The notes under the pieces were generated by a model that was not told the DNA's origin, did not search any database, and saw nothing but the letters and a program-made list of their open reading frames with translations. From positions 248,001 through 312,000 of the forward strand of contig NZ_BLPF01000003.1 in the NCBI RefSeq assembly GCF_011764425.1: DNA of 64,000 bases, in the 5' to 3' direction. The position numbers were made by a program, and so were the translations under genes. This stretch comes from Phytohabitans houttuyneae. GTDB lineage: Bacteria > Actinomycetota > Actinomycetes > Mycobacteriales > Micromonosporaceae. This document shows, in pieces, positions 6,771 to 64,000 of this stretch (the stretch's first letter is position 1; each line of letters begins with the position of its first letter).

Positions 6771-6802
6771 CGCCAACACGTTAGCCGCTGGTTTGTCCAT
6801 AA

Positions 6803-34176: not shown

Positions 34177-35507
34177 CCCGCCAGATCCGGCTCGCGTTGC
34201 GGGCCTACGGCGTCGGGGGACCCGGGCAGCACAGCCTGTGGAAGGACCCGCGCGTCCCGAAGAACGCGAGCATCGACATCGACTGGTACATCGCGCAGGC
34301 CAAGGCGGCCGAGCACGCCAAGTTCGACGCGCTGTTCATCGTGGACAGCCAGTTCATCGACGCGACGTACCCGCCGCACTACCTCAACCGCCTGGAGCCG
34401 CTGACGCTGCTGTCCGCGGTGGCCGTCCACACCCGACACATCGGGCTCGTCGGCACGCTCAGCTCCACGTACAACTCGCCGTTCAACGTGGCCCGCCGCT
34501 TCGCCTCGCTCGACCACATCAGCCGCGGCCGGGCCGGCTGGAACGTCGTCACCAGCTTCGACACCGGCACCTCCCGCAACTACGGCCTCGACGAGCACCT
34601 CGACTACGCGACCCGGTACGGGCGGGCCCTGGAACACGTCACCGTCGTACGTGGACTGTGGGACTCCTACGAGGACGACGCGTTTCCCGCCGACGTGGCG
34701 CGGGACGTCTTCCTCGACCCGGCCAAGCTGCACCCGCTGCACCACGAGGGCGAGCACTTCAAGGTGGCCGGGCCGCTGAACATCTCCCGCTCCCCGCAGG
34801 GGCAGCCGGTCATCTTCCAGGCCGGCGTCTCCGAGGAGGGGCGCAACCTGGCCGCGCACGTCGCCGAGGGCATCTACGCGCCCGGCGGCACGCTGGAGTC
34901 GACCCGCGACTACTACGCCGACATCAAGCGCCGCACCGCCGCGCTCGGCCGCGACCCCGACCACATCCTCATCTTCCTCGGCGCCCAGCCGGTCATCGCC
35001 GGTACCGACGCCGAGGCGCACCGCCTCTCCCGGGAGATCTTCGACGCGGACAACGACTTCCCGCGCAAGCTGGCCGCGTTCGGCCGGGCCTTCGGCGCGT
35101 ACGACTTCTCCCAGCACGACCTCGACGCGCCCTTCCCCGACGTGGCCGCGCACGCCGAGCGCAGCGGCCGTACCCGCGGCACCGAGATCGTGCGGCGGGC
35201 CCGCGAGGACGGTCTGACGCTGCGCGAGACGGTCCTCGCGTTCACCGAGTACCGGCCGTCCCCGTTCACCGGCGACCCGCGCACCGTCGCGGACACCATC
35301 GAGAGCTGGTTCGGGGCCGGCGCGTTCGACGGCCTCAACCTCGGCTTCCGCACCCACGAGGACCTGGACCGGTTCATCGCGGACGTGGTCCCGCTGCTGC
35401 AGGCCCGCGGCCGGTTCCGCACCGAGTATGAGTCGGACACGCTGCGCGGCAACCTCGGACTGCCGGTACCGCAGAACCGCTGGACGAGGGCGGAGGCGCT
35501 GCGATGA
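34173..35507 (+). CDS. LLM-class FMN-dependent monooxygenase (NtaA/SnaA/DszA type), copy 2
   Basis: A 444-aa paralogue of the enzyme at 27836, sharing GGPGQH, FDALFIVDSQF, YLNRLEPLTLLSA, GRAGWNVVT and the C-terminal TLRGNLGLP. It depends on reduced FMN. ATG 34173 has GGAGG 7 nt upstream and overlaps the ATPase stop. Two paralogues around a single importer suggests two oxidation steps or two related substrates. Confidence 0.9.
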   Translation: MTRQIRLALRAYGVGGPGQHSLWKDPRVPKNASIDIDWYIAQAKAAEHAKFDALFIVDSQFIDATYPPHYLNRLEPLTLLSAVAVHTRHIGLVGTLSSTYNSPFNVARRFASLDHISRGRAGWNVVTSFDTGTSRNYGLDEHLDYATRYGRALEHVTVVRGLWDSYEDDAFPADVARDVFLDPAKLHPLHHEGEHFKVAGPLNISRSPQGQPVIFQAGVSEEGRNLAAHVAEGIYAPGGTLESTRDYYADIKRRTAALGRDPDHILIFLGAQPVIAGTDAEAHRLSREIFDADNDFPRKLAAFGRAFGAYDFSQHDLDAPFPDVAAHAERSGRTRGTEIVRRAREDGLTLRETVLAFTEYRPSPFTGDPRTVADTIESWFGAGAFDGLNLGFRTHEDLDRFIADVVPLLQARGRFRTEYESDTLRGNLGLPVPQNRWTRAEALR

Positions 35508-37219
35508 GCCTGCGCGACGTGGAGTTTCCGGTCGCCGTACCGCCCGAGGACGTCTCCGTGCTCGTCGTCGGCGCCGGGCCGGTGGGGCTGTCCGCGGCGG
35601 TCGAGCTGGCCGGGCGCGGCGTGGACGTCGCGGTCGTGGACGCCGCCGTCCGGGCCACGCTGGTGCGGGCCGGCGCGATGGGCCACTCGCCCCGCGTGGT
35701 CGAGCACTTCCGCCGCTGGGGCGTGCTGCAGCGGGTGCGCGAGGCGTGGACCTTCCCGCCGGAGTGGAACCGCGGCATCCGCGTCGTCACCTCCCTCGTC
35801 GGGCACGACCTCGGCTCCCGGCAGGTCCGCGGCTTCGGCGAGCGCGGCGCCCGCCGGCACTCACTGCACCCGCCGATCCGGCGGCCGCAGACGGCGCTGC
35901 AGCAGGTGTTCCTGGACCACCTCGGCGAACGGGGCGTCACGGTCGCCGGGGGATGGTTCGTCGAGGCGCTGCGGGACACCGGCGACGCGGTGGAGACCAC
36001 CGTGGTGTCCCGCGCGTCCGGCGCCACCCGGGTCATCCGCTCGGCGTACGTGATCGGGGCCGACGGGGGCAGCAGCACCGTGCGCCACCTGGCCGGCATC
36101 CACCGCGAAGGCGACCACGCGGAGGAGAAGATGTTCCGCCTCGTGGTGCGCACCGGCGACGTCTTCGAGCGCGGCGCCGCCCCGCCCAGCGGCACCAACA
36201 TCGTGCTCAACCAGCGGGCGTCCGGCTTCCTCGCCGCGATCAGCCCGCGCGAGTGGCGGGTCTACGCCGGCCCGTACCCGCTGGACGCCGACCCGCCCGA
36301 GCGGGAGCTGCTGGCCACCGCGCGGGCCGCGTTCGGCTTCGACCTCGACCTGGAGATCGCCTCCTGCACCACGTACTACCAGGCGACGAGGATCGCGGCC
36401 ACGTTCCGCAAGGGGCGGGTGCTGCTGGCCGGCGACGCCGCGCACGTGCGCACCCCGGGCGGCAACCTCGGCGAGGGCTTCGGCGACGTGGTCAACCTCG
36501 GCTGGAAGCTCGCCGCCGTCCTGAGTGGACACGCCGCCGACGCGCTGCTCGACTCCTACGACCACGAGCGGCGGCCGCACAACTGGCGGGTGGCCGACCA
36601 CGCCCTCGACCGGGCCCGCCGCGGCCGCGAACGCCTCGCCGAGATCCGCCGCGCCGGCGTGCCCGACGACGCCGACACCAGCGCCGCGGCGGAGGCCCGG
36701 CGCGAGCAGATCCGCGGGCTGCTCGCCGCGGAGCGGGGCGAGGCACCCGGCGTGCTGTTCGACGAGCGGTACGACGCCTCGGGCGTGCTGTGGTACGAGG
36801 ACGGCCAGCTCACCGGCGAGCCGCCGTGGGACCCCGACCGGTACGAGGACGACCCCAGGCCCGGCCACCGCGCGCCGGACGGCTACGTCGACCCGTGGGG
36901 CGACACCCTCTACGACCGCATCGGCAACGACCTCGCGCTGCTCGTGCTCACCGCCGACCGGTCGGTGGAGCACGCGTTCGTCGCGGCGGCCGCGGAACGC
37001 GCGCTGCCGTTCACCGTCGTCCACCTCACCGACGAGGCGGCCCGCCGGGTGTACGGCACCGGCAACGTCCTCGTCCGCCCCGACCAGCACGTCGCGTGGC
37101 GCGGCACCGCACTGCCCGCCGCCGGGGCGGGCGCGGTGCTCGACCGCGTCCTCGGCCACGCCGCGCCCGCCATTCCCGCCCTTTCGAAAGGTGCCACACA
37201 TGACCTCGCTCTACGGTGA
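35504..37219 (+). CDS. FAD-dependent aromatic-type hydroxylase (PHBH fold)
   Basis: A 571-aa flavoprotein monooxygenase. The FAD dinucleotide motif is VVGAGPVGLSAA (residues 21-32), the mid-sequence VIGADGGSSTVR is the DG motif, and VLLAGDAAHVRTPGGNLGEGFGD near residue 310 is the GD motif. A C-terminal thioredoxin-like region of about 170 residues is similar to those in MhpA/PheA-type hydroxylases. It probably hydroxylates an aromatic ring using NAD(P)H. It overlaps both neighbours, so it works in the same pathway as the LLM enzymes. Confidence 0.88.
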   Translation: MSLRDVEFPVAVPPEDVSVLVVGAGPVGLSAAVELAGRGVDVAVVDAAVRATLVRAGAMGHSPRVVEHFRRWGVLQRVREAWTFPPEWNRGIRVVTSLVGHDLGSRQVRGFGERGARRHSLHPPIRRPQTALQQVFLDHLGERGVTVAGGWFVEALRDTGDAVETTVVSRASGATRVIRSAYVIGADGGSSTVRHLAGIHREGDHAEEKMFRLVVRTGDVFERGAAPPSGTNIVLNQRASGFLAAISPREWRVYAGPYPLDADPPERELLATARAAFGFDLDLEIASCTTYYQATRIAATFRKGRVLLAGDAAHVRTPGGNLGEGFGDVVNLGWKLAAVLSGHAADALLDSYDHERRPHNWRVADHALDRARRGRERLAEIRRAGVPDDADTSAAAEARREQIRGLLAAERGEAPGVLFDERYDASGVLWYEDGQLTGEPPWDPDRYEDDPRPGHRAPDGYVDPWGDTLYDRIGNDLALLVLTADRSVEHAFVAAAAERALPFTVVHLTDEAARRVYGTGNVLVRPDQHVAWRGTALPAAGAGAVLDRVLGHAAPAIPALSKGATHDLALR

Positions 37220-37937
37220 CTACACCGCACCGGCCGGGCTGCGCACGCGCGGCACCGTGCTGGTGGTGGCCGGCCGCGGTGAGACCCCGGCCAGCTACGC
37301 CCGCTTCGGCGCCCGCCTCGCCGCCGACGCCTACCGGGTCCGGGTGCTGCCCGCGCCGGACGGCGACCCCGCCGAGGCACTGGCCGCCGCGGTCGCCGGC
37401 ATCCCCGACCTGGTATACCCGCTGGTCCTTGCCGGTGCGGACACCGGGGCCGCCGCGGTGGCCGCGCTGGTCGCGACGGCGCGGCCCGAGGCCGACTGGT
37501 GGCCGGACGCCGTGGTACTGGCCGGACTGCCCGGCTACGACGCGCACACCGCCGCCGGGTGGGACGACGAGCTCGACGCCCGCACCCACTGCCCGGCGCA
37601 CCGCGGCGTGCTGACCGGCGACACCACCGTCCAACGTGGAGCGCTGGCGTCGAGCGTCCCCGCCGCCCTGCTCGACGCCGCGTACGGCAGCACCGCCGAG
37701 CAGCCGCACCTGCTGCTGGTCGGTGACGCGGACCCGCTCGCCAGCCGCGCCGACCTGGCCCGCCTCGCCAAGTCGCTGCCGGCCGTGCGGCTGTCGGTCG
37801 TGCGCGGCGCGCACCACGACGTCCTCAACGACCTGCAGCACCGCTCCGTGGCCGCGGAGGTGGTCGCGTTCCTGGAGGCGGTGCGCGGGCCCGCGCCGCT
37901 CACCCCGGTCGTACACGTCGAGTCGAGCAGCTGGTGA
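37200..37937 (+). CDS. Alpha/beta-hydrolase-like protein
   Basis: A 245-aa protein with a Rossmann-like alpha/beta layout: GTVLVVAGRGETPASYARFG at the start, and HLLLVGDADPLASRADL plus VVRGAHHDVLND providing the Asp and His expected late in an alpha/beta hydrolase. The nucleophile elbow is unusual: LAGADTGAAAV stands where GxSxG is expected, so the Ser may be replaced by Asp or the enzyme may not be a simple esterase. ATG 37200 overlaps the FAD gene by 20 bp. Confidence 0.75.
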   Translation: MTSLYGDYTAPAGLRTRGTVLVVAGRGETPASYARFGARLAADAYRVRVLPAPDGDPAEALAAAVAGIPDLVYPLVLAGADTGAAAVAALVATARPEADWWPDAVVLAGLPGYDAHTAAGWDDELDARTHCPAHRGVLTGDTTVQRGALASSVPAALLDAAYGSTAEQPHLLLVGDADPLASRADLARLAKSLPAVRLSVVRGAHHDVLNDLQHRSVAAEVVAFLEAVRGPAPLTPVVHVESSSW

Positions 37938-38449
37938 GGACGATGGGATCGCTGGACGCGGACACCTTCCGCACGCTGCTGCGCCGCCAGGCCGCCACGG
38001 TCACCGTGGTCACCGCGCCCGGCTCGCCACCGGCCGGCTTCACGGCCACCTCGTTCACGTCGGTGTCGCTACGCCCGCCGCTGGTCTCCTTCTGCCTGGA
38101 CCGTGGCTCGTCGAGCTGGCCCACGCTGGAGCGCGCCGCGCACGTCGGCGTGCACCTGCTGGGCGAGGACCAGCACGAGGTGGCGCGGACGTTCGCGACG
38201 AGCGGCATCGACCGGTTCGCCGCGCACACCGGCTGGCGGTACGGCCCGCACGGCGTGCCCCTGCTCGACTCGCCGGTCGCGTGGCTGCTGTGCCGCGTCA
38301 CCGAACGCGTGACGGCCGGCGACCACGCGATCGTGCTGGCCGAGCCGCTGCTGGGCCACTACGCGCACGGTGCCGCCCCGCTGCTCTACCACGAGGGCCG
38401 GTACGCGTCGGTCGCCCCATCCGCGGTGGTCGCCCGCCAGGCCGCCTGA
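37934..38449 (+). CDS. Flavin reductase (HpaC/SnaC-like)
   Basis: A 171-aa flavin reductase-like domain. RRQAATVTVVTAPGSPPAGFTATSFTSVSLRPPLVSFCL covers the flavin-binding start (landmark at residues 16-55), and the HVGVHLLGEDQ strand follows. It would supply FMNH2 to both LLM monooxygenases. GTG 37934 overlaps the hydrolase stop; ATG 37943 is an alternative. It is the last gene of the island: 98 bp and a possible new promoter precede the next gene. Confidence 0.9.
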   Translation: MRTMGSLDADTFRTLLRRQAATVTVVTAPGSPPAGFTATSFTSVSLRPPLVSFCLDRGSSSWPTLERAAHVGVHLLGEDQHEVARTFATSGIDRFAAHTGWRYGPHGVPLLDSPVAWLLCRVTERVTAGDHAIVLAEPLLGHYAHGAAPLLYHEGRYASVAPSAVVARQAA

Positions 38450-38547
38450 ATCGCCGGTGCTAGCGGACGTCTATCCGGTGTCTATGCCTCCCGGACACTC
38501 TGGGTGACGGCCGTCCGGTGGGGACGGTGAAGGGGGAGGCATCCGAG

Positions 38548-40155
38548 ATGCGTACGTGGGGGGATGGCGAGCGCCGTGGGGGCGGCGACGCCGATGACAA
38601 ATGGCAGCGCTGCCTGCGGTTGGGGCAGGAGCTTGCCGCGATGGGACCGGACGGGGCGGAGACGCGCCGCCGGTACCTGGAGGTGTTGCTCGGTGACGGA
38701 CCGTCACCGGCAGAGCGGCCGTTGCGGATTCTCGTGCTCGGTGCGGGCGTCGCGGGGCTCTGCGCGGCGTACGTGCTGCGCCGGGCCGGCCACGACGTGC
38801 GGGTCCTGGAGGCGGACCCGGACCGGATCGGCGGGCGGCTGGCGGCGCCGCCGCGCAGCCCGTTCCGGGATCCGCTGCTCTACGCGGACGCGGCCGGGGT
38901 GTCCATCCCGGACACCCACCCGCTGACCCTGTCCCTGGTGGACGGTCTGGGGCTGCGCCGCCGCCCCGCCGCGCCGGCCGCCGTCCCGGCCGGGTACTCG
39001 GCGGTGGACCTGCTCGAGGCGGTGCTGGACGCGGTGGGCGAGTACCACGAGGCGGACACGCCGGACGGCCGCGTAGTGGGATGGGCGCGGCTGCTGCACG
39101 ACCTGGACCACCTGTCGCTGGGGCGGTTCCTGACCGAGTGGGCGGGGCTGGACACGGCGGCGGTCACCGCGATCGGGCGGCTGGAGCACGCCGGGTACCG
39201 CATGCCCATGTCCTTTGTGGACTTCTACCTGCGCCACCTGCACGCCGGACCGCGCGTGGCGCGCTGGGAGATCGAGGGTGGGAGCTGGCGGCTGCCGTAC
39301 GCGTTGGGTCCGGTGCTCCACGACATGGTCGACCTCGACCGGCGCGTGACCCGGATCGAGTACCACGACCCGGCCCGCCCGGCCGCCGCCTACACGCACG
39401 TCGCCGCCGAGGGACCGCGCGTGTGGGTGGAGACGGTGTCCGGCCGCGGACGGCGGCAGGGGTACCTGGCCGACGCGGCGGTCGTCACGCTGCCGTTCGC
39501 GGCGCTGCGCCAGGTGCGGGTCGAGCCGTCGCTGCCGGCCGCCAAGCGCCGCGCGGTGATGGCGCTGCGGTACGAGCCGGTCACCACCGTGCGGCTGGAG
39601 TTCGACCGGCGTTGGTGGGAGTTCGACGAGGAACGGTGGCGGCGCGAGCTGGACGCGCTCGCCCCCGGCCTGTACGACCGGTACGGGCAGCCGCCGGCGC
39701 ACCGGTCGGCGCCGGCGGGCGGGACGAACCGCCTCGCGTCGTTTCCGGCCGGCCCGGTGCCCGGCAGCGACGGCGGCGTCGTGCTGGCCAGCCACGCGCG
39801 GGGCGGCGGCGCGACCCGGTGGGAGGCGATGACGCCCGACGACCGGTACGCGCGGGCGCTGCGCGGGCTGCAGGAGGTGTACGGCAACCGGATCGAGGCG
39901 TTCTACACCGGACACGGCGCCACCGGCAGCTGGGCCGACGGTGAGGCGGTGCTCGCGCCCGGCCAGCTCACCGCGCACCACCTGGCCGGCGTGGCAGCGG
40001 CCGGCGCGCTGCACTTCGCCGGCGAGCACACCTCGCTGCGGCGCTCATCCGTCGAGGGCGCGATCGAGTCCGGGGTGCGTGCCGCCCTCGCCCTCGACGG
40101 CCAGCACCGGCTGGCGCCGGTCCGGGAGCCGGTCTGCGGCGGCGCGCGCCGCTGA
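38548..40155 (+). CDS. Flavin-containing amine oxidase/L-amino-acid oxidase-like
   Basis: A 535-aa FAD oxidase. Residues about 58-95 hold the dinucleotide motif ILVLGAGVAGLCAAYVLRRAGHDV and the E-A-D / GGRL segment. The C-terminal AGALHFAGEHTSLRRSSVEGAIESG is the conserved flavin-contact region of monoamine oxidases. It may oxidise an L-amino acid or amine to a keto compound with peroxide release. ATG 38548 has GGGGGAGG about 7 nt upstream. A CGTCTATCCGG motif shared with two later genes lies 68 bp upstream. Confidence 0.88.
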   Translation: MRTWGDGERRGGGDADDKWQRCLRLGQELAAMGPDGAETRRRYLEVLLGDGPSPAERPLRILVLGAGVAGLCAAYVLRRAGHDVRVLEADPDRIGGRLAAPPRSPFRDPLLYADAAGVSIPDTHPLTLSLVDGLGLRRRPAAPAAVPAGYSAVDLLEAVLDAVGEYHEADTPDGRVVGWARLLHDLDHLSLGRFLTEWAGLDTAAVTAIGRLEHAGYRMPMSFVDFYLRHLHAGPRVARWEIEGGSWRLPYALGPVLHDMVDLDRRVTRIEYHDPARPAAAYTHVAAEGPRVWVETVSGRGRRQGYLADAAVVTLPFAALRQVRVEPSLPAAKRRAVMALRYEPVTTVRLEFDRRWWEFDEERWRRELDALAPGLYDRYGQPPAHRSAPAGGTNRLASFPAGPVPGSDGGVVLASHARGGGATRWEAMTPDDRYARALRGLQEVYGNRIEAFYTGHGATGSWADGEAVLAPGQLTAHHLAGVAAAGALHFAGEHTSLRRSSVEGAIESGVRAALALDGQHRLAPVREPVCGGARR

Positions 40156-53082: not shown

Positions 53083-53325
53083 AGTCATCGGGAGGATTCG
53101 CCTTCACCTCCCGATCAACGACACGACGCTCGCGGGTGAGGGGGAAAGGGTATTCGTTAACGCGAGTCTTTTCGGCGACCATCAGCATGGCTGTTCGGCA
53201 TGAGGGGCAATAGTTGCCGCATCAAATGCTGGTCGCGTTTTAGAGGGCGCACGGCGCATCTGGACGAAAGGTCTCTTTCGCACGAGGGACGCGTACTTCT
53301 TTCACATTGGATTCGGGGAGGCTTT

Positions 53326-53988
53326 GTGGAGAGGGTAGGAAACACCGAGTTGCTGGTGCGGGACTGCCGGACCGGCGACGAGCGTGCGTGGGCGACGCTG
53401 GTGCGGCGGTTCGCGCCGCTGGTCGGAGCCATCGCCCGGTCGTACGGGCTCAATGCGGCCGACTGCGAGGACGTCAGCCAGGCCACCTGGGTGCGCCTGT
53501 GGCGCGGGCTCGACGGGCTCCGCCAACCGGAGTTGCTCACCGAGTGGCTGTCCATGGTCGCCCGGCGCGAGGCACTGCGCCACGTCGGCGCGAAGCAGCC
53601 GCCCGCGCCCACCGGAGACCTCGTGCTGTTGGAGCGGGGCCGGCACGAGGTGTCGGCCGAGGAAGTGGTCGTCTCGCGCGAGTTCGCGACGCGGCTGCGT
53701 GCTGCGTTCCGGTCACTGCCGGCGCAGTGCCAGCACCTGCTGGCGCTGCTGGTCGAAGGGCGGAGCTACGCCGAGGTCAGCGACGCGATGGGGCTGGCGG
53801 CCGGCTCGGTCGGCCCGGTGCGTTCACGCTGCCTGGAGCGGCTGCGGCAGGCCCTCGGAGAGCTCGATGCCGCCGCTGGCGAGTCGCGGTGCCGGACACC
53901 GTCCGGCGCGCCCTCCCAGAGCAGGCCCGGGTGTGTCCGGCACCTGGACCAGGTCCGGAGTCTTGGCCCGCGACGCGCGGTGAGCTAG
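53326..53988 (+). CDS. ECF-type RNA polymerase sigma factor
   Basis: A 220-aa sigma factor. Region 2 runs from DERAWATLVRRFAPLVGAIA through DVSQATWVRLWRGL, and region 4 from LPAQCQHLLALLVEGRSYAEVSDAMGL to RCLERLRQAL. A 30-residue Arg/Pro-rich tail follows. GTG 53326 has GGGGAGG 5 nt upstream. No anti-sigma gene is adjacent apart from the small ORF at 53985 on the other strand. The A/T-rich 243 bp upstream likely holds its promoter. Confidence 0.88.
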   Translation: MERVGNTELLVRDCRTGDERAWATLVRRFAPLVGAIARSYGLNAADCEDVSQATWVRLWRGLDGLRQPELLTEWLSMVARREALRHVGAKQPPAPTGDLVLLERGRHEVSAEEVVVSREFATRLRAAFRSLPAQCQHLLALLVEGRSYAEVSDAMGLAAGSVGPVRSRCLERLRQALGELDAAAGESRCRTPSGAPSQSRPGCVRHLDQVRSLGPRRAVS

Positions 53989-54457: not shown

Positions 54458-54865
54458 ATGGCCGTCACGCGCGAAGTTGTCGTGGAAGCCGTAAACGCGG
54501 CGATGGTCGACGCACTCGGCGTCGAACCCGAGGAGGTGCTCCTCGATGCGACGCTCCTCGGTGACCTTGGCGCCGAGTCCATCGATCTGCTGGACATCCT
54601 GTTTCGGCTCGAGCGGACCCTCGGCATCAAGGTGACCGCGGGCGATCTCGCCAACCACATCCAGGGCGAGTACACCGAGGAGGAGTTCGGCACCCCCGAG
54701 GGCGTGGTCTCCGACCTCGGGCTCACCCAGCTGAAGAAGGTCATGCCGCAGATCGCCGTCGACGACCTGCGGGGCAAGCTGCCCGCCGAGGAGGTCATGG
54801 GCCTGTTCACGGTCGGCAACCTGGTCGACTTGATCCTCGCCCGCCACGCTGCGCCGGTTGGCTGA
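54458..54865 (+). CDS. Acyl carrier protein with C-terminal extension
   Basis: A 135-aa ACP, longer than the usual 80. Helices I-II surround LLGDLGAESIDLLDILFRLE, in which Ser41 takes the phosphopantetheine arm. After about residue 85 an extra 45-residue region (IAVDDLRGKLPAEEVMGLF and VGNLVDLILARH) repeats an ACP-like helix. The RBS AGAAGGAGG is close to ideal, 6 nt before ATG 54458. It is the first gene of the lipid/polyketide operon and carries the growing acyl chain. Confidence 0.9.
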   Translation: MAVTREVVVEAVNAAMVDALGVEPEEVLLDATLLGDLGAESIDLLDILFRLERTLGIKVTAGDLANHIQGEYTEEEFGTPEGVVSDLGLTQLKKVMPQIAVDDLRGKLPAEEVMGLFTVGNLVDLILARHAAPVG

Positions 54866-54900
54866 CCATGGGGATCGCCGCCGGAAGCGGAGGCTCCGTG

Positions 54901-55353
54901 ATGCGGTTCCACCTGACCGACCGGATCCTCGGCCACGTCCCCGACGAGTCGATACGCACCCGCAAGGTCACGTCCCGGCTGGAGACCTACTGGCGCGATT
55001 CGGCCGGCGGGCCGGTGATGCCGCCGGCGCTGGTCCTGGAGGCCCTGTGCCAGGCCGGCGCGTGGCTGGTCATGCTCAGCACCGGGGTGCGCCGGCGGGC
55101 CGCTCTGCTGTCCGTCGCCGAAGTCGAGGTCACCGGCCCGGTGCGCCCGGGCGACGTGCTGGATGTGGACGCCTGGGTCGAGTCGATGTCCGACGAGGCC
55201 GCGGTGATGTCGGGTGTGGCCACCGTCGACGGCCGGGTGGTGCTGCGCGCCACCGACGTGATGTGTGCCCTGGTCGACGTCGCGCAGCTCGACGACCCGG
55301 AGGTGACCCGGCTCCAGCTGGACCGGCTCGTGGGGCAGGGAGGGCCGCGGTGA
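54901..55353 (+). CDS. FabZ/FabA-like hotdog protein lacking the catalytic His
   Basis: A 150-aa hotdog-fold protein. GGPVMPPALVLEALCQAGAWLV aligns with the family's PVMPGVLxxEAMAQ helix, with the catalytic Glu47 present. Fourteen residues before it, where the catalytic His should be, there is Asp33. It may be a non-catalytic partner of the dehydratase domain fused to the next KS, or act on another step. ATG 54901 has GGAGG 7 nt upstream; ATG 54868 is in frame. Its stop overlaps the KS start (GTGA). Confidence 0.8.
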   Translation: MRFHLTDRILGHVPDESIRTRKVTSRLETYWRDSAGGPVMPPALVLEALCQAGAWLVMLSTGVRRRAALLSVAEVEVTGPVRPGDVLDVDAWVESMSDEAAVMSGVATVDGRVVLRATDVMCALVDVAQLDDPEVTRLQLDRLVGQGGPR

Positions 55354-57131
55354 GGCGGGTCGTCGTCACCGGCATCGGCGCCGTCACCCCGCTGGGTAAC
55401 AACGCGCCCAGCACCTGGCGTTCGCTGATGGCCGGGCGCAGCGGCGTACGCGAGATCGCGACGTTCGATGCGAGCACCTTTCCGGTCCGCATCGCCGGGC
55501 AGGTGGAGGGGTTCTCAGTCGCCGAGGCGGTGCCGGACCGCCGCGACCGGCGGCACCTGTCCCGCTCCGCCGGATACGGCGTCGCCGCCGCGCTGGAGGC
55601 GCTGCGCCAGGCGGGGGACCTGGACGGCACCGACCCGTGGCGGCGCGGGGTCTCGGTCGGCGGTACGGTCGGCCGCGTCGAGCTCCAGGAGCTGGCCGAC
55701 ATGTCCTGGTTGCTCGAGTCCACCAAGCACAGCCAGATCTTCCGCCAGTCGCCGAACGAGGTCCTCGCGCGCGACCAGAATGTCGGCCCCGCCGTCATCG
55801 CCCGGCTCGGCGACTGCCGCGGCCCGTACGTCAGCGTCAGCACCGCGTGTGCCGGCGCCGGACACGCGATCGGCGAGGCGTACCGGCTGGTGCAGGAAGG
55901 CGACGCCGACATGATGGTCGCCGGTGGCACCGACGCGCTGACCACCTGGATGGACGTGCTCGGCTTCTGCCTCCTCGGCGCGCTCACCGCGGACGACGCC
56001 GACGCGCCCGAGCGGGCCTCCAAGCCGTTTGACGCCCGGCGTTCCGGCTTCGTGCTGGGCGAGGGGGCGGTGATGGCCGTCCTGGAGGAGCGCGACCACG
56101 CGCTGGCCCGAGGCGCGGCTGCCCTCGGCGAGCTGGTCGGCTACGGCTCGAGTCTCAACGCGTACCGGATCACCGACTCACCACCCGATGGAGGTGGCTG
56201 CATCATCGCCATGCGCGAGGCGCTCGCCGAGTCCGGGCTCCGGCCCACCGACATCGACTACGTGGTCAGCCACGGCACCGGGACGCCCGGCAACGACAGC
56301 AGCGAGACCGTCGCGATCAAGGAGGTCTTCGGCGCGCACGCCTACGACCTGGCGATCAGCTCACCGAAGTCGATGGCCGGGCACCTGACCTCCGCGGCCG
56401 CCGGGCTCAACCTGCTCGCCGCGCTGGGCGCCATTGCCGACCAGGTGGTACCGCCGACCATCAACCTCACCCACCCCGACCCGAGGCTCGACCTCGACTA
56501 CGTGCCGGGCGTCGCGCGGCGCCAGCCGGTCCGCGCCGCGATGGTCAACGCGTTCGCGTTCGGCGGCACCAACGCCTGCCTGGTGGTACGCACGCCCGAG
56601 CCGGCCGGACCGGCTGGCCTGGGCGCCGCCGTCGCGGAAGAGCCGTTACCGGCACCCACCGCCGCCGCGCCGCCGCCACCGGCGCCCGCCGTATCCGTCG
56701 AGCAGCTGCTGCGCGCCGCCGAGCGCGGCGGCCTCGACCGGCTGCTGGACCTCGCCCCCGGCCAGGCCGGCACCGCCGTCCGCAACGTCCCGGCGACGTG
56801 GCCGCTGCTGGCCACTCACTTCCCGCGCAAGCCCGTGATGCCCGGCGTGCTCATCCTGGACGACCTCGCCACCCTCGCCGGGCTTGTCGCGGACGCCGCC
56901 ACGACCGGACCCGATCGCGGCGACTGGTCGCTGACCGGCGCCCGCCGGGTGCGCTGGCGCCACTTCGTCCAGCCCGGAGACTGCGTCGAGCTGACCGTCG
57001 TCCGGCTGGGCGGCGCCGAAGGCGACCCCGCGTTCAGCGGCACCGTACGCGTGGACGGCCGGACCGTCGCCACCGTCGCCGAGCTTCGCGTGCGGTGGAC
57101 ACGGTGGGCTCCCGCCGGGGTGGTCCGATGA
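55350..57131 (+). CDS. Beta-ketoacyl-ACP synthase fused to a FabA-like dehydratase domain
   Basis: A 593-aa fusion. Residues 1-415 are a FabF-type KS with an intact triad: Cys167 in STACAGAGHA, His308 in VSHGTGTPGND and His345 in SMAGHLTSAAAG. A Pro/Ala-rich linker (about 430-455) leads to a hotdog domain with THFPRKPVMPGVLILDDL, giving His490 and Asp504, spaced as in the FabA dyad. One polypeptide could thus condense and then dehydrate or isomerise the chain. GTG 55350 follows GGGAGGG. It overlaps both neighbours by 4 nt. Confidence 0.9.
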   Translation: MRRVVVTGIGAVTPLGNNAPSTWRSLMAGRSGVREIATFDASTFPVRIAGQVEGFSVAEAVPDRRDRRHLSRSAGYGVAAALEALRQAGDLDGTDPWRRGVSVGGTVGRVELQELADMSWLLESTKHSQIFRQSPNEVLARDQNVGPAVIARLGDCRGPYVSVSTACAGAGHAIGEAYRLVQEGDADMMVAGGTDALTTWMDVLGFCLLGALTADDADAPERASKPFDARRSGFVLGEGAVMAVLEERDHALARGAAALGELVGYGSSLNAYRITDSPPDGGGCIIAMREALAESGLRPTDIDYVVSHGTGTPGNDSSETVAIKEVFGAHAYDLAISSPKSMAGHLTSAAAGLNLLAALGAIADQVVPPTINLTHPDPRLDLDYVPGVARRQPVRAAMVNAFAFGGTNACLVVRTPEPAGPAGLGAAVAEEPLPAPTAAAPPPPAPAVSVEQLLRAAERGGLDRLLDLAPGQAGTAVRNVPATWPLLATHFPRKPVMPGVLILDDLATLAGLVADAATTGPDRGDWSLTGARRVRWRHFVQPGDCVELTVVRLGGAEGDPAFSGTVRVDGRTVATVAELRVRWTRWAPAGVVR

Positions 57132-58398
57132 ACCGCGTCGCGGTCACCGGCATCGGACTGCTCACCCCGGTCGGCACCGGCGTCGCGCCGACCTGGCAGG
57201 CGATGCTGGCCGGCCGCACCGGCATCGGATACCTCAAGGGGTTCGACCCGACCTGCCTGAACACCCGGTTCGGTGCGGAGCTCAGGGACTTCGACCCCGG
57301 GCTGTTCGCCTCCCGGCGCACTCTGCGCAGCACCACCCGGGAGGACCAGCTCGCGCTCGCCGGCGTACAGCTCGCGGTGGAGGACAGCGGCCTGGACCTG
57401 AACACGGCGGACGTCAGCCGGTTGGGGGTGTTCCTCGGCGGAAACAAGGACATCTCCCGGCCACAGCACCTCATCGACGGCGCGTTGGCGGTCCGCGACG
57501 AGCGGGGCCGAGCCGAGGAGCGGGTGCTCGGAGAGCGGATGGAGTCGAGCTTCTACCCCCTGTTCTACGTCGAAGGCCTGCAGGCGGCGTCGCTGTTCCA
57601 CGTCTCCCAGCGATACCGGGCGATGGGCGCCAACGCCTACTTCCACGGCACGGCCGACGCCGGTGCCACGGCGATAGCGCGGGCGTACCGCTCCGTGCGG
57701 CGAGGCGAGTCCACAGTGGCCATCTGCGGCGGCTTCGACTCCGGCGTCTCCTTCTGGGCCATGTCCAAGATGGACGGTCTCGGCGTGCTGACCGACCGCA
57801 ACGACCTCGGCGAGCGCGCATTCCGCCCGTACGACCGCGAGCGCAGCGGATCGCTGCTCGGGAGGGGGCGGCGATGCTCGTCCTGGAGGAGTACAGTGCG
57901 GCCCGCCGCCGCGGCGCCCGGATCTACGCCGAGCTGGCCGGCGCGGGCAGCGCGTTCGACGTCGGTGCGATGGTCACCCCGGAACGCGACGGTGAGGCGC
58001 TGACCGCGGCCATCGTCGCGGCCATGCGTGACGCGCGGTTCCCCTCCGGCGGACCCGACTACGTGGCCACCCACGGGTGCGCCACGGTGCTCGGCGACGC
58101 CAGCGAGCACGCCGGGCTGCGCGCCGCGCTCGGCGCCGGGGCCGACACGGTCGCCAGCAGTGTGAAGCCAGCGGTCGGCCACCTCGTCGCCGCGGCCGGC
58201 GCGGTCAACGTGGCGGTGGCGGCGCTCGCGGTCCGCGAGGACGTCGTGCCGCCGACGCTGAACCTCGAAGACCCGGACCCGCGTTGCGCGTTCGACTGGG
58301 TTCCCGGCCAGGCCCGCCAGATTCCGGTACGGCGGGCGCTCGCGCTCGCCCGGGGCCTGCACGGGCAGAACGTCGCGTTGGCGCTCGCGGGCGTCTGA
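57128..58398 (+). CDS. Cys-less KS (chain-length-factor-like), frameshifted
   Basis: About 424 aa when repaired. The fold is FabF/CLF-like throughout (VAVTGIGLLTPVGTG to VAALAVREDVVPPTLNLEDPDP). The nucleophile is missing: HGTADAGATAIA has Asp177 where TACASG has Cys, while ATHGCATVLGD and AVGHLVAAAG keep both His. Such subunits normally pair with an active KS and set chain length. The frame breaks near 57862, where CTCGGGAGGGGG needs one more G to give LLGEGAAMLVLEE. ATG 57128 overlaps the previous stop. Confidence 0.85.
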
Positions 58399-58435
58399 CG
58401 GCACGCAGGAGCGAATGGGGGATGAGGGGACTGTG

Positions 58436-60777
58436 ATGCAGCACCACGACGTGGCCATCGTTGCCGCCGGGGCAGTCACCGCGCAGGGGCGGGGCGCGTC
58501 CTCGCTGTGGGACGGCGCCCGCGCCGGCCGGGTGGCGATCCGCCCGGTGACCGGGCTCGACATGTCCGGGTACGGCACCAAGCTCGCCGGCGAGGTGACC
58601 GACCTGGAGGAGGCGCCACACGCGTACCGCCGGCCGGAGGGTTTCCGGGAGCGCGTCGTCGAGCTCGCGCTGCATGCCGCCGCCGAGGCGCTGGATGAGG
58701 CCCCGGCCCTGGTGGCGGCGGCCGGCGGCGAGCGTGCCGGGGTCGTCTTCGGCACCTGCAACGCCGGGCTGATCGCCGGCCGCGAGTGGCTGGCCGCCCT
58801 GGAACGCGACGATCGGCCGGACCCACTGCTGGCCACACTCGTACCGCCGCAGGCGACCGCGGAGGCGCTGGCCGGCGCGTTCGGCCTGGGCGGTCCGGTG
58901 CTGTCGGTGAACACGGCGTGCGCCTCGGGCGCCAACGCGATCGGCTGGGCCGCCGACCTGATCCGCACCGGCCGGGCCGACCTGATGCTCGCGGGCGGCG
59001 CGGACGCCCTCTCCGACGTCTGCTTCGCCGGATTCAGCTCGCTGGAGGCGCTGGCCAGCGAGCCGGCGCGGCCGTACTCGCGGGGGCGTCAAGGGCTGTC
59101 GCTCGGCGAGGGTGGTGTGTTCCTGCTGCTGGCCCGCGCCGACCTGGCCGCGGCGCACGGTCCGGCGCCGATCGCGTACGTGGCCGGCTACGGCCTGTCC
59201 GCCGACGGTTACCACCCGACCGCCCGCGGCCCGACGGCAGCGGCGCGGCTCGGGCGATCCGGACCGCCATGCGCCTGGCCGGCGTGGCCCCCGCCGATGT
59301 GGGCTACCTCAACGGCCACGGCACCGGCACCGACAAGAACGACCCGGCCGAGACAAAGGCGATCCGGCTCGCGCTCGGCGAGGCCGCCAACGGTTTGGCG
59401 GTGAGCAGCACCAAGTCCGTCATCGGCCACCTGCTCGGCGCCGCCGGCGCGGCGGAGGCCCTGGTCACCGCGCGCGCCCTCGCCTGCGGCGTCGCTCCGC
59501 CGACCGCCTCCTACCTCGGCCCTGACCGCGACTGCGACCTGGACTACGTGCCGATCGACGCGCGGCCGGTCCGCACCGACGTGGCGCTCTCCAACAACTT
59601 CGCGTTCGGTGGGTCCAACGCCTGCCTGGCGCTGACCCGGGCCGGTTCGGGGCGGCGGCCGCCTGCGCCTGACCTGGACGCGGTGGTGGTCACCGGCCTG
59701 GCGGTGCTCGGTCCGGCCGGCGACGGGGTCGCCGCGGCCCAGGAGGCGGTGTCGCGCAAGGCGCCGCTGACCGGCGAGGTGGCCGGGGTCCGGGTCGGCA
59801 CGATGGCGCTCGACCCGGAGCCGTACCTGAGCCGCAAGGCGCGGCGGCGCATGGACCGGCTCACCGTGGCCAGCATCGTCGCGTCGGCGAAGGCCCTCGC
59901 GGACGCGAAGCTGCCGTCCGGGGCGGATGTGGAGTCGCCGGCCGGCATCGTCTTCGGCACCGGCGCCGGCCCGGTGGAGGCGATGGCACGGTTCACCCGG
60001 CCACTGCTGGCCGAAGGCGCGGCGGCCGCCGATCCCGGCTGGTTTCCCAACACCGTCTACAACCAGGCCGCCGGCCAGGTCGCCCAGCATCTGGGCCTGC
60101 GCGGCCCGACGTCCACGGTGAGCACCGGTCACGCCTCGGGCGCCACCGCGCTGGCCTACGGCTACGACCTGCTGCGGCTCGGGCACTGCGAGGCGCTGGT
60201 GTGCACCGCCACCGACATCGTCGACGACTTGGTCGTACGGGCCTACCGGGACCTCGGGCTGCTCTCCCTGACGCCCGGCGACCACCGGTTGCCTCTGGCC
60301 GAGGGCAGCGTCGCCGTGGTGCTGGAGCGCCGCCGGCACGCCCAGGCACGCAGCGCGCGCGTTCTCGCCGAGATCACCGGGTACGGCGCCGCCACCCACG
60401 TCGTACCCGGTGTGGACTGGGACCGGGACGGCGTCGCCACCGGCCGGGCGATGCGCGCCGCACTCGCCGACGGGGGTGCCGAGCCGGCCGACGTGTCGGC
60501 GCTGTGGCTGGCCGCGGCCGGGCTCAGCGTCGCCGACCAGGCCGAGCGGCGGGCGGCGCAGGCGCTGTTCGGCGACCGGATGCCGGCGCGGCACGCGCCC
60601 AAGTCCGTGCTTGGTGAGCCACTCGGGGCGAGCGGCGCGCTCTGCTTCGCGCTCGCCGCCGCCGATCTCGCCACGGCCGACCCGGACACCGGCCCCGCGC
60701 TGGTCAACTCCATGTCGCTGGGCGGCGCCAGCGTCTCCCTACTGCTTCGCACGGCAACCCACGAGGAGGTTCGATGA
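58436..60777 (+). CDS. KS-KS fusion: active KS joined to a CLF-like KS, frameshifted
   Basis: About 780 aa when repaired, twice the length of a normal KS. The first unit is a complete KS: Cys162 in NTACASGAN, His in NGHGTGTDKND and His in SVIGHLLGAAG. The second has lost them: STGHASGATA (Cys to His), no GHGTG counterpart and VLGEPLGASG in place of GHL. This is a KSalpha-CLF pair on one chain. The frame breaks near 59223, where ACCGCCCGCGG needs one more C to give HPTAPRPDGSG. ATG 58436 has GAGGGG 7 nt upstream. Confidence 0.85.
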
Positions 60778-61547
60778 AGCTGACCGAGCGCGTCGCGCTC
60801 GTCACCGGTGCGTCCCGCGGCATTGGCCGCTCCACGGCGCTGGCCCTCGCGGCGGACGGTGCCACAGTGGCGGTGAACTACCGCGCCGGCAAGGACTCCG
60901 CCCACGAAGTGGTCGAGGCGATCGAGGCAGCCGGTGGCCGGGCCGCGGCCTTCGCCGCCGACGTGTCCGTGTACGAGGAGGCGCGCGGGTTGGTGCAGGA
61001 GGTCATCGAGGCGTTCGGCGACCTGCACATCCTGGTCAACAACGCGGGCATCGCCAAGGACGCGCTGATCTACCACATGGAGCCGGAGGACTGGCTCGAC
61101 GTCATGAAGGTCAACTTCGGGGGCACGTTCAACTGCACCAAGAGCGTCCTGGAGCACTTCATGGTCACCCGCGACGGGGTCATCGTGAACGTCTCCTCGG
61201 TGATGGGTGAGCGGGGCTGGACCGGCGAGTCGAACTACGCCGCGTCCAAGGGCGCGATCGACGCCTTCACCCGGGCCAGCGCCGTCGAGCTGGCCCGGTT
61301 CGGCATCCGGGTCAACGCGGTGCTGCCCGGCTTCGTCCCCACCGACCTGGTGGCCGGGCTGTCCGAGGGCGAGGCGGCCAAGCACATGAAGCGCCAGATC
61401 CCGATGCGCCGCTTCGCGATGGTGGAGGAGGTCGCCGGGGCGATCCGCTTCCTCTCCGGACCGGAGTCCAACTACCTCACCGGCGTCCTGCTCAATGTGG
61501 ACGGTGGCGGCATGGCCGGCCTGGGCCTCGGGCGGTCGAAGTGGTGA
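60774..61547 (+). CDS. 3-oxoacyl-ACP reductase (FabG-like SDR)
   Basis: A 257-aa short-chain dehydrogenase. TGASRGIGRSTALAL binds NADPH, LVNNAGIAKD is the NNAG motif, and the active site has SSVMGERGWTGESNYAASKG with Tyr155 and Lys159. It reduces the beta-keto group made by the KS units. Overlaps the KS-CLF gene (ATGA) and the KASIII-like gene (GTGA). Confidence 0.93.
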   Translation: MKLTERVALVTGASRGIGRSTALALAADGATVAVNYRAGKDSAHEVVEAIEAAGGRAAAFAADVSVYEEARGLVQEVIEAFGDLHILVNNAGIAKDALIYHMEPEDWLDVMKVNFGGTFNCTKSVLEHFMVTRDGVIVNVSSVMGERGWTGESNYAASKGAIDAFTRASAVELARFGIRVNAVLPGFVPTDLVAGLSEGEAAKHMKRQIPMRRFAMVEEVAGAIRFLSGPESNYLTGVLLNVDGGGMAGLGLGRSKW

Positions 61548-62640
61548 GCGCCGGCGTGCGGGTGGTGGGCGTCGGCAGCCACCTGCCGGGCGAGCCGATC
61601 AGCAGCGCGCGGGTCGAGGAGCTGGTCGGCCCGCTGCCGGACGAGGTCGCGCGGGACATCTGCGTCGAATCGCGGCACTGGCTGATCGACCCGTCCACCG
61701 GCGAGCATCTGGACAGCAACTCGGGTATGTGCGAGAAGGCGGGCCGGGCGGCGCTGCGTGCGGCCGGGCTCACGGCCGACGACATCGACCTGCTGCTGGT
61801 TGCCACCGCGACCCCGGAGTTTCCACTGCCGCCCACCGTCAACCTGGTCCAGGATCGGCTCGGCGCCGGCCGGTGCGCCACCATCGAGCTCCGTTCGGCC
61901 GGCGCCGGCGCGGTGCAGGCGATGGAGATCGCCCGGCTGTACCTGAGCACTGGCGCCTACCGCACCGCGCTGGTCATTGGCAGCGAGGCAAGCTCGCCCG
62001 CGCTCGCGCCGATCTTCCTCGGCGTACCGCCGCAGAAGGTCCGGATCCGCGAGCGCATCCCGGCCTTCATGTTCGGCGACGGCGCCGGCGCCGTGGTCCT
62101 GCGCCGGGACGACAGCGGTCCCGGCGGGCTGCTCGGCGGGGCCACCAGCGCGGTCGGACCCGGTCGGGCACCCGGCATCAAGGTGGTCGGCGGCGGCACG
62201 CACGCCCCATCCACCGGCAGCAGGCGGCCAAGCGGCTGGTCACCCTCACCGTCGACGTGGTCTCCGCGGGCGCGTACGCCCCGGCGCTCGTCGCCGCCGC
62301 CATCGGCGAGACGCTGGAGCGCTGCGGTGCGGCGCCGGAGAGCGTGGACGTGTGCGTGGTGCCGGAGGGCAACGCCGGGTGGATGCGCGACGCGCTGGCC
62401 AGCGCCGACCTGGACCGGGACGAGTGGCGGCGGCTCGACGGCGAGTTCGTGGACAGCCTGTCCCGGCGCGGCGCCCTGGGCTGCGCCGGCCCGCTGGTCT
62501 GCCTCGACGACGGCTGGCGCGCCGGACTGGTCAAGCCGGGCCAGCGCGTGCTGCTGGTGGGCGTGGAGAGCAGCAAGTGGGTGCACGCCGGCGTGCTCGT
62601 CGACTGGACGCTGGCCGGACCGGACGGGGGTGCGGGGTGA
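61544..62640 (+). CDS. KASIII-like thiolase-fold protein lacking the catalytic triad, frameshifted
   Basis: About 365 aa when repaired. GVRVVGVGSHLPGEPISSARVEE at the start and LLLVATATPEFPLPPTVNLVQ later are typical of FabH/KASIII proteins, but the nucleophile position is Gly120 (RSAGAGAVQAM), and the HQAN-type region reads VVPEGNAGWM with Glu in place of His. It may be a structural partner or an acyltransferase with changed chemistry. The frame breaks near 62208, where CACGCCCCATCC needs one more C. GTG 61544 overlaps fabG's stop. Confidence 0.8.
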
Positions 62641-64000
62641 AGACCGAGGCGGAGTACGACGTCGTCGTGGTCGGCGCCGGCCTGGGCGGGCTGTCGGTGG
62701 CCGCGCTGCTCGCGCACAGCGGCGAACGGGTCGCCGTGCTGGAACAGGGCGAGGGGGTGGGCGGCCTCGCCCACGCTTTCGTGCGCGGCGGGTACACCTT
62801 CGACCCGGCGGTGCACGGCATCCAGTCCGGGGAGATCGTCTGGAACCTGCTGGAGTACCTTGGCGTCGACGATCTGTGCCCGTACGTGCTGTCGCCGCAC
62901 TTCTACGGCGCGGCCTTCCCGGACGGCGTCACGGTGTGCGCGCCGGCCGGCTGGGACGCCTTCGTGGAGACCAACGCCGACCTGCTCGGCGGGGCCGAGG
63001 GCGCCCAGGTGCGCCGCTTCTTCCAGGTGCTCCGCGACGTGCTGGACGAGATGGCCTGGCTCCAGATGCGGGCCGACCCGCGCGCGCTCGCGACGATGAT
63101 GGCGGAGCGGCCCACCTTCGCCCGGTACCGGTCCAGCCCGGTCAGCGACGCCCTGGACGACTACGTGCCGAGCCCGCTGGCCCGGGCCGTCTGCACCGCC
63201 GCCTGGCCGTTCCTGGGCACGCCGCCGTCCCGGCTTTCGCTGCTCAACTTCGCCCAGATGCTGAACACCTACCTGGAGGGCGTGCGATACCCGCTCGGGT
63301 CATTCCAGAAGCTCGCCGACGCGTTCGCCGCGGCTGTCACCCGGTACGGCGGGGAGATCCACGTCGGTACGCCGGTCGAGCGCATCCTCGTCGCCGGAGA
63401 CCGGGTCACCGGCGTGCGCACCGCCGACGGCGTCACGCGGCGGGCGCGGGTGGTGGTGTCCAACGCGGACGCCACGACGACGCTGACCGGGATGCTGGGT
63501 GAGGAGCACCTGCCCGAGCCCTACCTGCGGCGGCTGCGCCGCATGACGCCGTCGCTGTCGGCGTTCACCGTGTTCGCCGCCACCGACCTCGACCTGGGCT
63601 CGCTCGGGCTGGCACACGAGACGTTCCTGCACCCGCACTGGGACCACGAGGAGAACTGGCGGGACGTCCTCGCCGGCCGCCCTGCCTCGGCCTGGATGTC
63701 CAACACGACCCTCTGCGACCCCGGTCTCGCGCCCGCCGGCGAGCACACCGCGATCCTGACCGCCCTCGCGCCGTGGGACCCCGGCCAGCCGTGGCACGAG
63801 ATCAAGGAGAGCTTCGCGGACACGATGATCCGCCAGTTCGACCGGGTCGTGCCGGGTCTCTCCGACCACCTCACCTACCGCGAGATCGGCACGCCGATCA
63901 CCATGCACCGGTTCACCCGGGGGACGCGGGCCGCGATGTACGGCTGGGAGAACACGGCGAACCAGTTCGCCAACAAGCGGCTCCCGCACAGCACCCCGGT
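62637..64000 (+). CDS. CrtI/phytoene-desaturase-like FAD oxidoreductase, cut by window edge
   Basis: The first 454 codons; the 3' end lies beyond the window. GTG 62637 overlaps the previous stop. The N-terminus has VVVVGAGLGGLSVAALLAHSGE for FAD and EGVGGLAHAF, and GSFQKLADAFAAAVTRYGGEI is the carotenoid-desaturase/RetSat signature region. Enzymes of this group desaturate or isomerise polyenes. In cinnamoyl-lipid and ladderane-type clusters a homologue acts on the type II product, for example by oxidising a cyclised polyene; that role here is inferred from context. Confidence 0.88.
   Translation, partial: MKTEAEYDVVVVGAGLGGLSVAALLAHSGERVAVLEQGEGVGGLAHAFVRGGYTFDPAVHGIQSGEIVWNLLEYLGVDDLCPYVLSPHFYGAAFPDGVTVCAPAGWDAFVETNADLLGGAEGAQVRRFFQVLRDVLDEMAWLQMRADPRALATMMAERPTFARYRSSPVSDALDDYVPSPLARAVCTAAWPFLGTPPSRLSLLNFAQMLNTYLEGVRYPLGSFQKLADAFAAAVTRYGGEIHVGTPVERILVAGDRVTGVRTADGVTRRARVVVSNADATTTLTGMLGEEHLPEPYLRRLRRMTPSLSAFTVFAATDLDLGSLGLAHETFLHPHWDHEENWRDVLAGRPASAWMSNTTLCDPGLAPAGEHTAILTALAPWDPGQPWHEIKESFADTMIRQFDRVVPGLSDHLTYREIGTPITMHRFTRGTRAAMYGWENTANQFANKRLPHSTP

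Follow-up and report, generated by a model that had tools for sequence, protein, structure and literature searches.

In classical dissociated (type II) polyketide synthases (PKSs) the ketosynthase (KS) and the chain length factor (CLF) are separate chains. The highly reducing type II PKSs for ishigamide, skyllamycin, youssoufene and globisporamic acid also have separate KS and CLF proteins, together with a ketoreductase (KR), a dehydratase (DH), an acyl carrier protein (ACP) and an acyltransferase, and no enoyl reductase (ER). According to the excerpts available of the articles cited here, two or three KS-CLF pairs divide elongation in cinnamoyl-lipid clusters (PMC9381841), which are marked by a cis-trans isomerase gene (PMC6510318, PMC9381841); in polyunsaturated fatty acid (PUFA) synthases the chain lengths are divided between a lone KS and a KS-CLF didomain (PMC9702510); the aryl polyene (APE) synthase has two condensing systems, ApeO-ApeC and ApeR, with the KR ApeQ and the dehydratase ApeH-ApeP (PMC8358021); and ladderane clusters of anammox bacteria hold FabF paralogues with altered active sites, phytoene-desaturase-like enzymes and four radical S-adenosylmethionine (SAM) enzymes (PMC2649909). 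Here we analyzed an operon at the end of a 64,000-nt stretch of Phytohabitans houttuyneae DNA (the window; C3:248001-312000 of an 11.3-Mb genome in 5 contigs) that combines traits of several of these systems.

The operon comprises nine plus-strand genes over 10.7 kb (54458-65173) and ends 1.2 kb past the window. In order, they encode a long ACP, a hotdog protein (HD1), a KS fused to a dehydratase domain (KSA-DHc), a second KS (KSB), a KS fused to a CLF (KSC-CLF), a KR, a KASIII-like, a CrtI-like and a FabD-like protein (Table 1). Neighboring genes overlap by 4 nt at six of the eight junctions (HD1/KSA-DH, KSA-DH/KSB, KSC-CLF/KR, KR/KASIII, KASIII/CrtI and CrtI/FabD), the KR/KASIII overlap assuming a GTG start at 61544, and gaps of 35 nt (ACP/HD1) and 37 nt (KSB/KSC) separate the others. 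Judged by eye, the ACP carries an insert of about 45 residues ahead of its last helix. An earlier reading of the window from its letters alone (the sequence-only reading) had reported eight genes in one direction, mostly with 4-nt overlaps. All eight are present on the plus strand and belong to the families named: PP-binding, a His-less FabA/FabZ-like protein, KS plus FabA, a Cys-less KS, KS plus a second KS, FabG-like, ACP_syn_III and CrtI. Its outline of the operon was right up to the window end; extending the contig to the right, as it had proposed, gave the end of the CrtI-like gene and the ninth, FabD-like gene.

A separate KS, a CLF-like partner, an ACP and tailoring enzymes are encoded together, which places the operon among the type II PKSs, and gene content and junctions agree with the earlier claim of a dedicated, tightly coupled dissociated PKS or fatty acid synthase (FAS). 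On balance we regard it as a self-contained dissociated PKS/FAS from a subfamily not yet described, its most likely product being a polyene acyl chain assembled on the ACP that the operon itself encodes. Among the literature matches listed, the excerpts held no account of this gene set, in line with the undescribed lineage that had been suggested.

The operon genes share with the highly reducing type II PKSs a KR and a DH, a KS-CLF cluster and, apart from a Pfam title discussed below, the lack of an ER. The operon differs from them in that KS and CLF form one chain, an extra unfused Cys-less KS is present, and genes for a nonribosomal peptide synthetase and an isomerase are missing. Excerpts of PMC10132072, PMC4383371 and PMC10777205 describe no such fusion. 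In structure-chain comparisons, KSA-DH of the window scored 327 bits against its best FabF chain versus 174 against the ishigamide KS (6kxd_A), and KSC-CLF of the relative L061 scored 261 versus 178; 6kxd_A scored under many FabF chains, and our trees held no reference KS of the polyene-KS group. No cis-trans isomerase gene was found among the nine genes or in the next gene, and, given also the higher FabF scores, the cinnamoyl-lipid placement of the sequence-only reading is not supported. Its ladderane placement fared no better: the operon has a desaturase-like gene and altered FabF-like proteins, but no radical SAM family was found among the nine genes. A PUFA synthase (PMC9702510) is similar in having FabA-like dehydratases and a KS that stands outside the KS-CLF didomain. 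The operon, in contrast, encodes separate small proteins, with a stand-alone ACP, a KASIII-like protein and an additional Cys-less KS but no ER, and the multidomain subunits, tandem ACPs and ER of PUFA synthases are absent from it. With the APE synthase it shares two condensing systems, a KR and a dehydratase; however, ApeO and ApeC are separate chains, ApeC being half-size, and neither aryl starter genes nor the ApeO-ApeC/ApeR set occur among the nine genes when compared with the E. coli CFT073 region. The E. coli ApeO-like KS scored 585 bits against 6qsp_A. Foxicin, which was also considered, is made by a type I PKS/NRPS according to the excerpt of PMC5318452 and is unrelated to the operon.

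Two further groups of clusters resemble parts of the operon. Bacillota clusters on plasmids of E. eligens and Priestia megaterium encode a one-chain KS-CLF (L164, 8560-10953, and L165, 11968-14397; neither with an annotated product) with ACP, KR, FabZ and FabD-like proteins, whereas KSA, KSB, HD1, KASIII and CrtI had no match in the stretches opened there. KS-ACP-hotdog clusters of verrucomicrobia and planctomycetes contain homologous ACPs, the long form in L122, and L122 and L124 each combine a KSA-like KS with two hotdogs; in contrast to the operon, these two loci had no KS-CLF match and their second KS keeps its Cys.

Active-site residues and fusions

To compare active sites, the window was aligned with its relatives, L162 and L173 being left out of the residue table and L075 entering each set as one row that duplicates L064. 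The active-site Cys is kept in KSA (25/25 rows) and KSC (25/25), the KSA row of L055 having gaps at both His columns. It is lost from every KSB row (25/25; 22 Ala, 3 Gly) and every CLF row (24/24; 23 His, 1 Asn). KSC and CLF lie on a single open reading frame (ORF) in all 24 relatives, and an origin of this fusion as a frame-break artefact was rejected on these grounds. The fusion is also found on two Bacillota plasmids and in a verrucomicrobial genome, and the earlier view that it is peculiar to this locus is not supported. The other fusion that had been called unusual, KSA-DHc, does set the window apart, with none of 22 relatives sharing it. As no stop codon occurs in any frame between 56387 and 56835, it is not a frame-break product; the linker (56584-56760) also lacks an in-frame start codon. 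A script had flagged the same fusion in L055, which was rejected, the shared ORF there crossing a masked run of N.

A similar division of residues was seen in the hotdog proteins. In FabZ-type sites His and Glu come from two subunits, and in HadAB-like pairs the active site is common to two different hotdog subunits. In the window and 21 relatives (22 rows), HD1 keeps the Glu and lacks the HFP motif throughout, the His found at this column in L062 being unrelated. In DHc the His is kept in 22/22 rows, while the acid varies (12 Glu, 7 Asp, 2 Gly, 1 Gln). Together, HD1 and DHc would thus complete a single site, and the missing acid of DHc in three loci agrees with a pairing that relies on the Glu of HD1 alone. 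The pattern, compared at the level of residues alone, would be compatible with a HadAB-like shared site. In the Pedosphaera locus L122 the two hotdogs form one natural chain, the Glu being confined to the first half and the His to the second. Natural double hotdogs were noted in L122 (9035-9868) and L124 (9012-9986), and the Glu/His split was checked in L122. A role of HD1 as an AmcE-type decarboxylase was also considered. The AmcE model gave 29 bits versus 54 for FabZ, and AmcE, a hotdog decarboxylase of cispentacin-type pathways (AmcE/F/G), has a conserved His66 in the excerpt of PMC10698177; HD1 has no such His, and the candidate was rejected.

The KASIII-like protein has Gly in place of the Cys in the window and in eight of 24 relatives, all eight with CrtI; the Cys is kept in 14 relatives without CrtI and also in L055 and L056, which have it. 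Other residues stand in place of the triad His and Asn in each of the 24 relatives, as they do in the second half of the window protein. With these changes, the KASIII-like protein cannot serve as a normal starter enzyme. The sequence-only reading had spoken of inactivated subunits. Catalytic residues are indeed missing, but from their residue patterns these subunits look like complementary partners rather than products of decay.

Phylogeny and occurrence of related clusters

The earlier reading had also called for KS trees. In a careful tree of 60 KS domains, with nine rows per set and several reference rows on long branches, KSA, KSB, KSC and CLF each formed one clade (100/99-100), the polyene-KS group being without reference rows as mentioned above. 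KSA joined planctomycete and verrucomicrobial KSs (100/99). KSC joined the KS halves of fused E. eligens, Priestia and verrucomicrobial proteins, an unfused Pedosphaera KS and the long-branched E. coli ApeO-like KS (100/98), and CLF joined the matching CLF parts of the fused proteins (100/99). The KS of L113 falls in the KSA group; L113 is a GC-rich contig filed under Kuenenia stuttgartiensis and possibly mis-binned. Constrained groups for approximately unbiased (AU) tests were named after the first-pass tree had been viewed. A joint clade of KSB and CLF was rejected (p-AU 0.0006), indicating that the Cys was lost at least twice. KSB and a verrucomicrobial KS2 were sisters in the first-pass tree (97), a grouping that the careful tree did not retain and that the AU test did not reject (p-AU 0.445).

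These relationships suggest, tentatively and with the odds slightly against it, that the subfamily joins two old modules. One would be the planctomycete/verrucomicrobial-type set of long ACP, split hotdog pair and KSA with a Cys-less KS partner; the other would be the one-chain KS-CLF seen in Bacillota and Verrucomicrobia. Together they would form one double synthase with optional KR and dehydratase, making polyenes or unreduced chains, in which here KSA is tied to the dehydratase.

Relatives were compared in a census of 25 loci (L036, L054-L066, L076-L078, L082, L159-L162, L167, L168 and L173), L074 (a named copy of L059) and L075 (a copy of L064) having been dropped as duplicates. ACP, KSA, KSB and KSC were present in all 25, CLF and KASIII in 24, L057 ending at a contig edge. 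KR, HD1 and DHc were each found in 22 and are all missing from L066, L159 and L167. Within the stretches compared, 19 loci had FabD, and a CrtI homologue occurred in 10/25. Since the core set recurs together in other genomes, its assembly in the operon is more than chance.

With KSB of L036 as probe, matches of at least 50% identity were obtained in 13 of 394 genomes of the class (query and window genomes included) and in 3 of 300 genomes of the family (window genome included), and none of five congeners of the window genome matched at E 1e-60. A Jiangellaceae-type KSB probe had matches in 7 of 22 genomes of that family, and a CLF probe in 2 of 396 genomes across the phylum, one of them the window genome. 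Figures from the KASIII query rest on the first half of the window protein. In 298 genomes of the order a KASIII probe mostly matched other KASIIIs, and the cluster was present at one (L036) of 16 places opened, L037 stopping at a contig end. A contig scan found the cluster in at least six among 80 loci listed (L074-L078, L082), two being copies of genomes already compared. Named carriers are Phytoactinopolyspora endophytica, Jiangella endophytica, Actinomadura litoris, Streptomyces brasiliensis, Streptomyces sp. col6 and Nocardia cyriacigeorgica. Among plasmids, 17 records matched KSC-CLF over at least 80% of its length and the first 16, all from Streptomyces, over 97%. Of nine hits examined, six belong to these 16 and have the cluster (L159-L162, L167, L168), and three others, L164, L165 and L166, which lack it, served as references.

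The surroundings of the relatives vary. In Jiangellaceae-type versions the core is accompanied by genes for AcpS, FabD and carboxylase subunits, a self-supplying set, and the cluster adjoins grpE-dnaJ-merR genes in L058, L059, L061, L063 and L074 (by Pfam on L074). A dnaK-like gene ahead of these genes in Jiangellaceae-type genomes is a guess. The Streptomyces plasmid copies adjoin Streptomyces antibiotic regulatory protein (SARP) genes and transporters, and the copies in L159 (NZ_CP108465.1) and L167 (NZ_CP108708.1) adjoin deoxysugar and SARP genes. Other relatives carry SnoaL, FAD monooxygenase, aldo-keto reductase, AMP-ligase or deoxysugar genes, none of which was found in the window operon or the next gene.

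A location beside chaperone genes with its own carboxylase subunits and AcpS, and the grouping of KSA with planctomycete and verrucomicrobial KSs, might be expected of a lineage-specific membrane FAS, for instance for an unusual unsaturated envelope lipid, rather than of specialized metabolism. The patchy occurrence in the Jiangellaceae-type family, the congeners and the class sample speaks against such a role, as do the Streptomyces plasmid copies beside SARP regulators and transporters. A separate housekeeping FAS is moreover present: FabD, FabH and FabF genes, a carboxyltransferase gene and a regulator lie together at G000:C4:998001-1012000 (read by eye), the KS of this set also being a PF00109 match and its FabH keeping Cys-His-Asn. 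We consider a membrane FAS highly unlikely. Because this set lies elsewhere in the genome, the operon is also not the normal FAS, and the refutation that the sequence-only reading had foreseen for the opposite case fails.

A possible route to a polyene

In the route that we favor, the FabD-like protein would load malonyl units onto the long ACP. We infer that elongation is split between two condensing units, KSA with its non-catalytic partner KSB and KSC with its fused CLF, by analogy with the lone KS and KS-CLF didomain of PUFA synthases and the KS-CLF pairs of cinnamoyl-lipid clusters. KR would reduce every keto group, and HD1 and DHc would act as one mixed hotdog pair with a single working site, the His coming from DHc and the Glu from HD1. 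With DHc tied to KSA in the window, condensation and dehydration would be physically coupled. No dedicated ER was found by Pfam or NCBIfam among the nine genes, the title of PF13561 aside, and double bonds would therefore stay, as in highly reducing type II PKSs. The KASIII-like protein, its catalytic residues lost, is probably a scaffold or a non-Claisen acyl handler, and the CrtI-like protein probably takes a late step, in which it may desaturate, isomerize or help cyclize the polyene.

The assignment of KR, which is 79-82% identical to that of L058 and L061, is relevant for this route. It is the only short-chain dehydrogenase/reductase of the operon and is FabG by NCBIfam (228.7 bits, cut-off 222), and a YxxxK at residues 155-159, which we take to be a ketoreductase motif, supports the FabG reading. 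Several points weigh against a polyene. The best Pfam match of KR is PF13561, titled enoyl-ACP reductase, and an ER encoded elsewhere in the genome could act on the chain. The CrtI match (TIGR02734) reaches 162 bits and lies under the family cut-off of 238. The frame breaks described below would, if real, silence KSB, KSC-CLF and KASIII. L066, L159 and L167 keep all four KS domains without KR, HD1 and DHc, which shows that a reducing cycle is no fixed companion of the KSs and that the family need not always make polyenes. Some relatives also carry tailoring genes like those of aromatic polyketide pathways (SnoaL, FAD monooxygenase, anthrone-oxygenase family).

The last two points would suit an aromatic or otherwise cyclized polyketide, for which KSA/KSB, KR and the dehydratase would make a short reduced primer that KSC-CLF extends, unreduced, to a ring-folding poly-beta-keto chain. 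SnoaL cyclases, FAD monooxygenases, an anthrone-oxygenase family protein and deoxysugar genes in relatives agree with this, as do the three loci without KR or dehydratase and an aromatic hydroxylase of the FAD_binding_3 family (35504-37216), which the window encodes 17 kb upstream of the operon. In the nine genes and the next gene, however, no family of cyclases, aromatases or monooxygenases was found, and a clade of KSC with aromatic type II KSs was rejected (p-AU 0.002), although one of CLF with aromatic CLFs was not (p-AU 0.15). An aromatic product thus seems unlikely to us, and a polyene remains the product that we favor.

Dead copies of KS, hotdog and KASIII proteins are kept in step across many genomes, which offers a compact, self-contained set in which the role of non-catalytic partners in type II synthases can be tested directly. 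For structural work, KSA-DH and the one-chain KS-CLF provide ready-made fixed pairs. As the family spans reducing and non-reducing versions, it could show how synthases switch between polyene and poly-beta-keto products. It also points to unexplored biosynthetic clusters in Jiangella, Phytoactinopolyspora, Nocardia, Actinomadura, on Streptomyces plasmids and in the family of the window genome itself.

Frame breaks and neighboring genes

One reading-frame change each was found in KSB, KSC-CLF and the KASIII-like gene (Table 1); the sequence-only reading had not mentioned these breaks. Identity to L058 and L061 carries on past each break: 76-77% before and 68-72% after it in KSB, 65% and 73-75% in KSC, and 64-67% and 73-74% in KASIII. 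By eye, an unrelated ABC-permease-like gene about 19 kb downstream (L032, ~10890), the pieces of which have no Pfam match, also changes frame, presumably inside the conserved EAA loop. As conservation continues and an unrelated gene breaks too, the three operon breaks are probably assembly indels. Three breaks within 10.7 kb could instead be true mutations of a decaying or silent operon, with the KSA-DH fusion, absent from all 22 relatives, as a late product of loosened selection. In favor of this, contig C4 has modular PKS frames that run without a break for up to 8153 codons, so that sequence errors would have to be uneven. The similar identity to Jiangellaceae-type proteins on either side of each break, the six other operon genes, intact and with tight overlaps, and the break in the permease-like gene argue against decay, which we hold to be the least probable of the explanations weighed. 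A DUF4832 protein (L032, 12546-14452) likewise looks split by a frame break, and similar genes seem to come after it (by eye).

Table 1. Positions of the operon genes and the upstream regulator, numbered from the first letter of the window
Feature	Position	Strand	Remarks
Sigma-70-like regulator (region 2)	53200..53988	+	Sigma70_r2 match
Acyl carrier protein, long	54458..54865	+	PP-binding residues 12-67
HD1, FabZ-like hotdog, His lost, Glu kept	54901..55353	+	start by homology; upstream ATG at 54868
KSA (Cys-His-His intact) with dehydratase domain DHc (His kept, Asp as its acid)	55350..57131	+	KS and FabA domain in one frame
KSB, KS without active-site Cys	57128..58398	+	frame changes once, near 57861
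KSC (Cys-His-His intact) fused to CLF (His in place of Cys)	58436..60777	+	one frame break near 59235
KR, FabG-like ketoreductase	60774..61547	+	short-chain dehydrogenase/reductase; YxxxK at residues 155-159
KASIII-like, Cys replaced by Gly, triad His and Asn also replaced	61544..62640	+	ACP_syn_III; frame break near 62212
CrtI-like FAD oxidoreductase	62637..64223 (window ends 64000)	+	TIGR02734, NCBIfam match only
FabD-like acyltransferase	64220-65173	+	beyond the window, from contig C3

Upstream of the operon, the sigma-70-like protein is probably the regulator of the cluster, a role that is suggested by homologues of 48-54% identity immediately preceding the ACP gene in four relatives (L058, L059, L061 and L063). 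Further upstream, the aromatic hydroxylase, which has FAD_binding_3 and Rng_hyd_C domains, lies in a group (35504-40152) with an amine-oxidase family gene and, by eye, a flavin-reductase-like gene between them. The window also encodes an APH-family phosphotransferase (PF01636, 48677-49564) and, on the minus strand, an arginine deiminase (PF02274, 4060-5334), which by eye adjoins a transporter-like gene (5322-6800). Elsewhere in the genome, very large modular PKS regions with frames of up to 8153 codons were noted at G000:C4:690-820 kb and G000:C2:15-106 kb.

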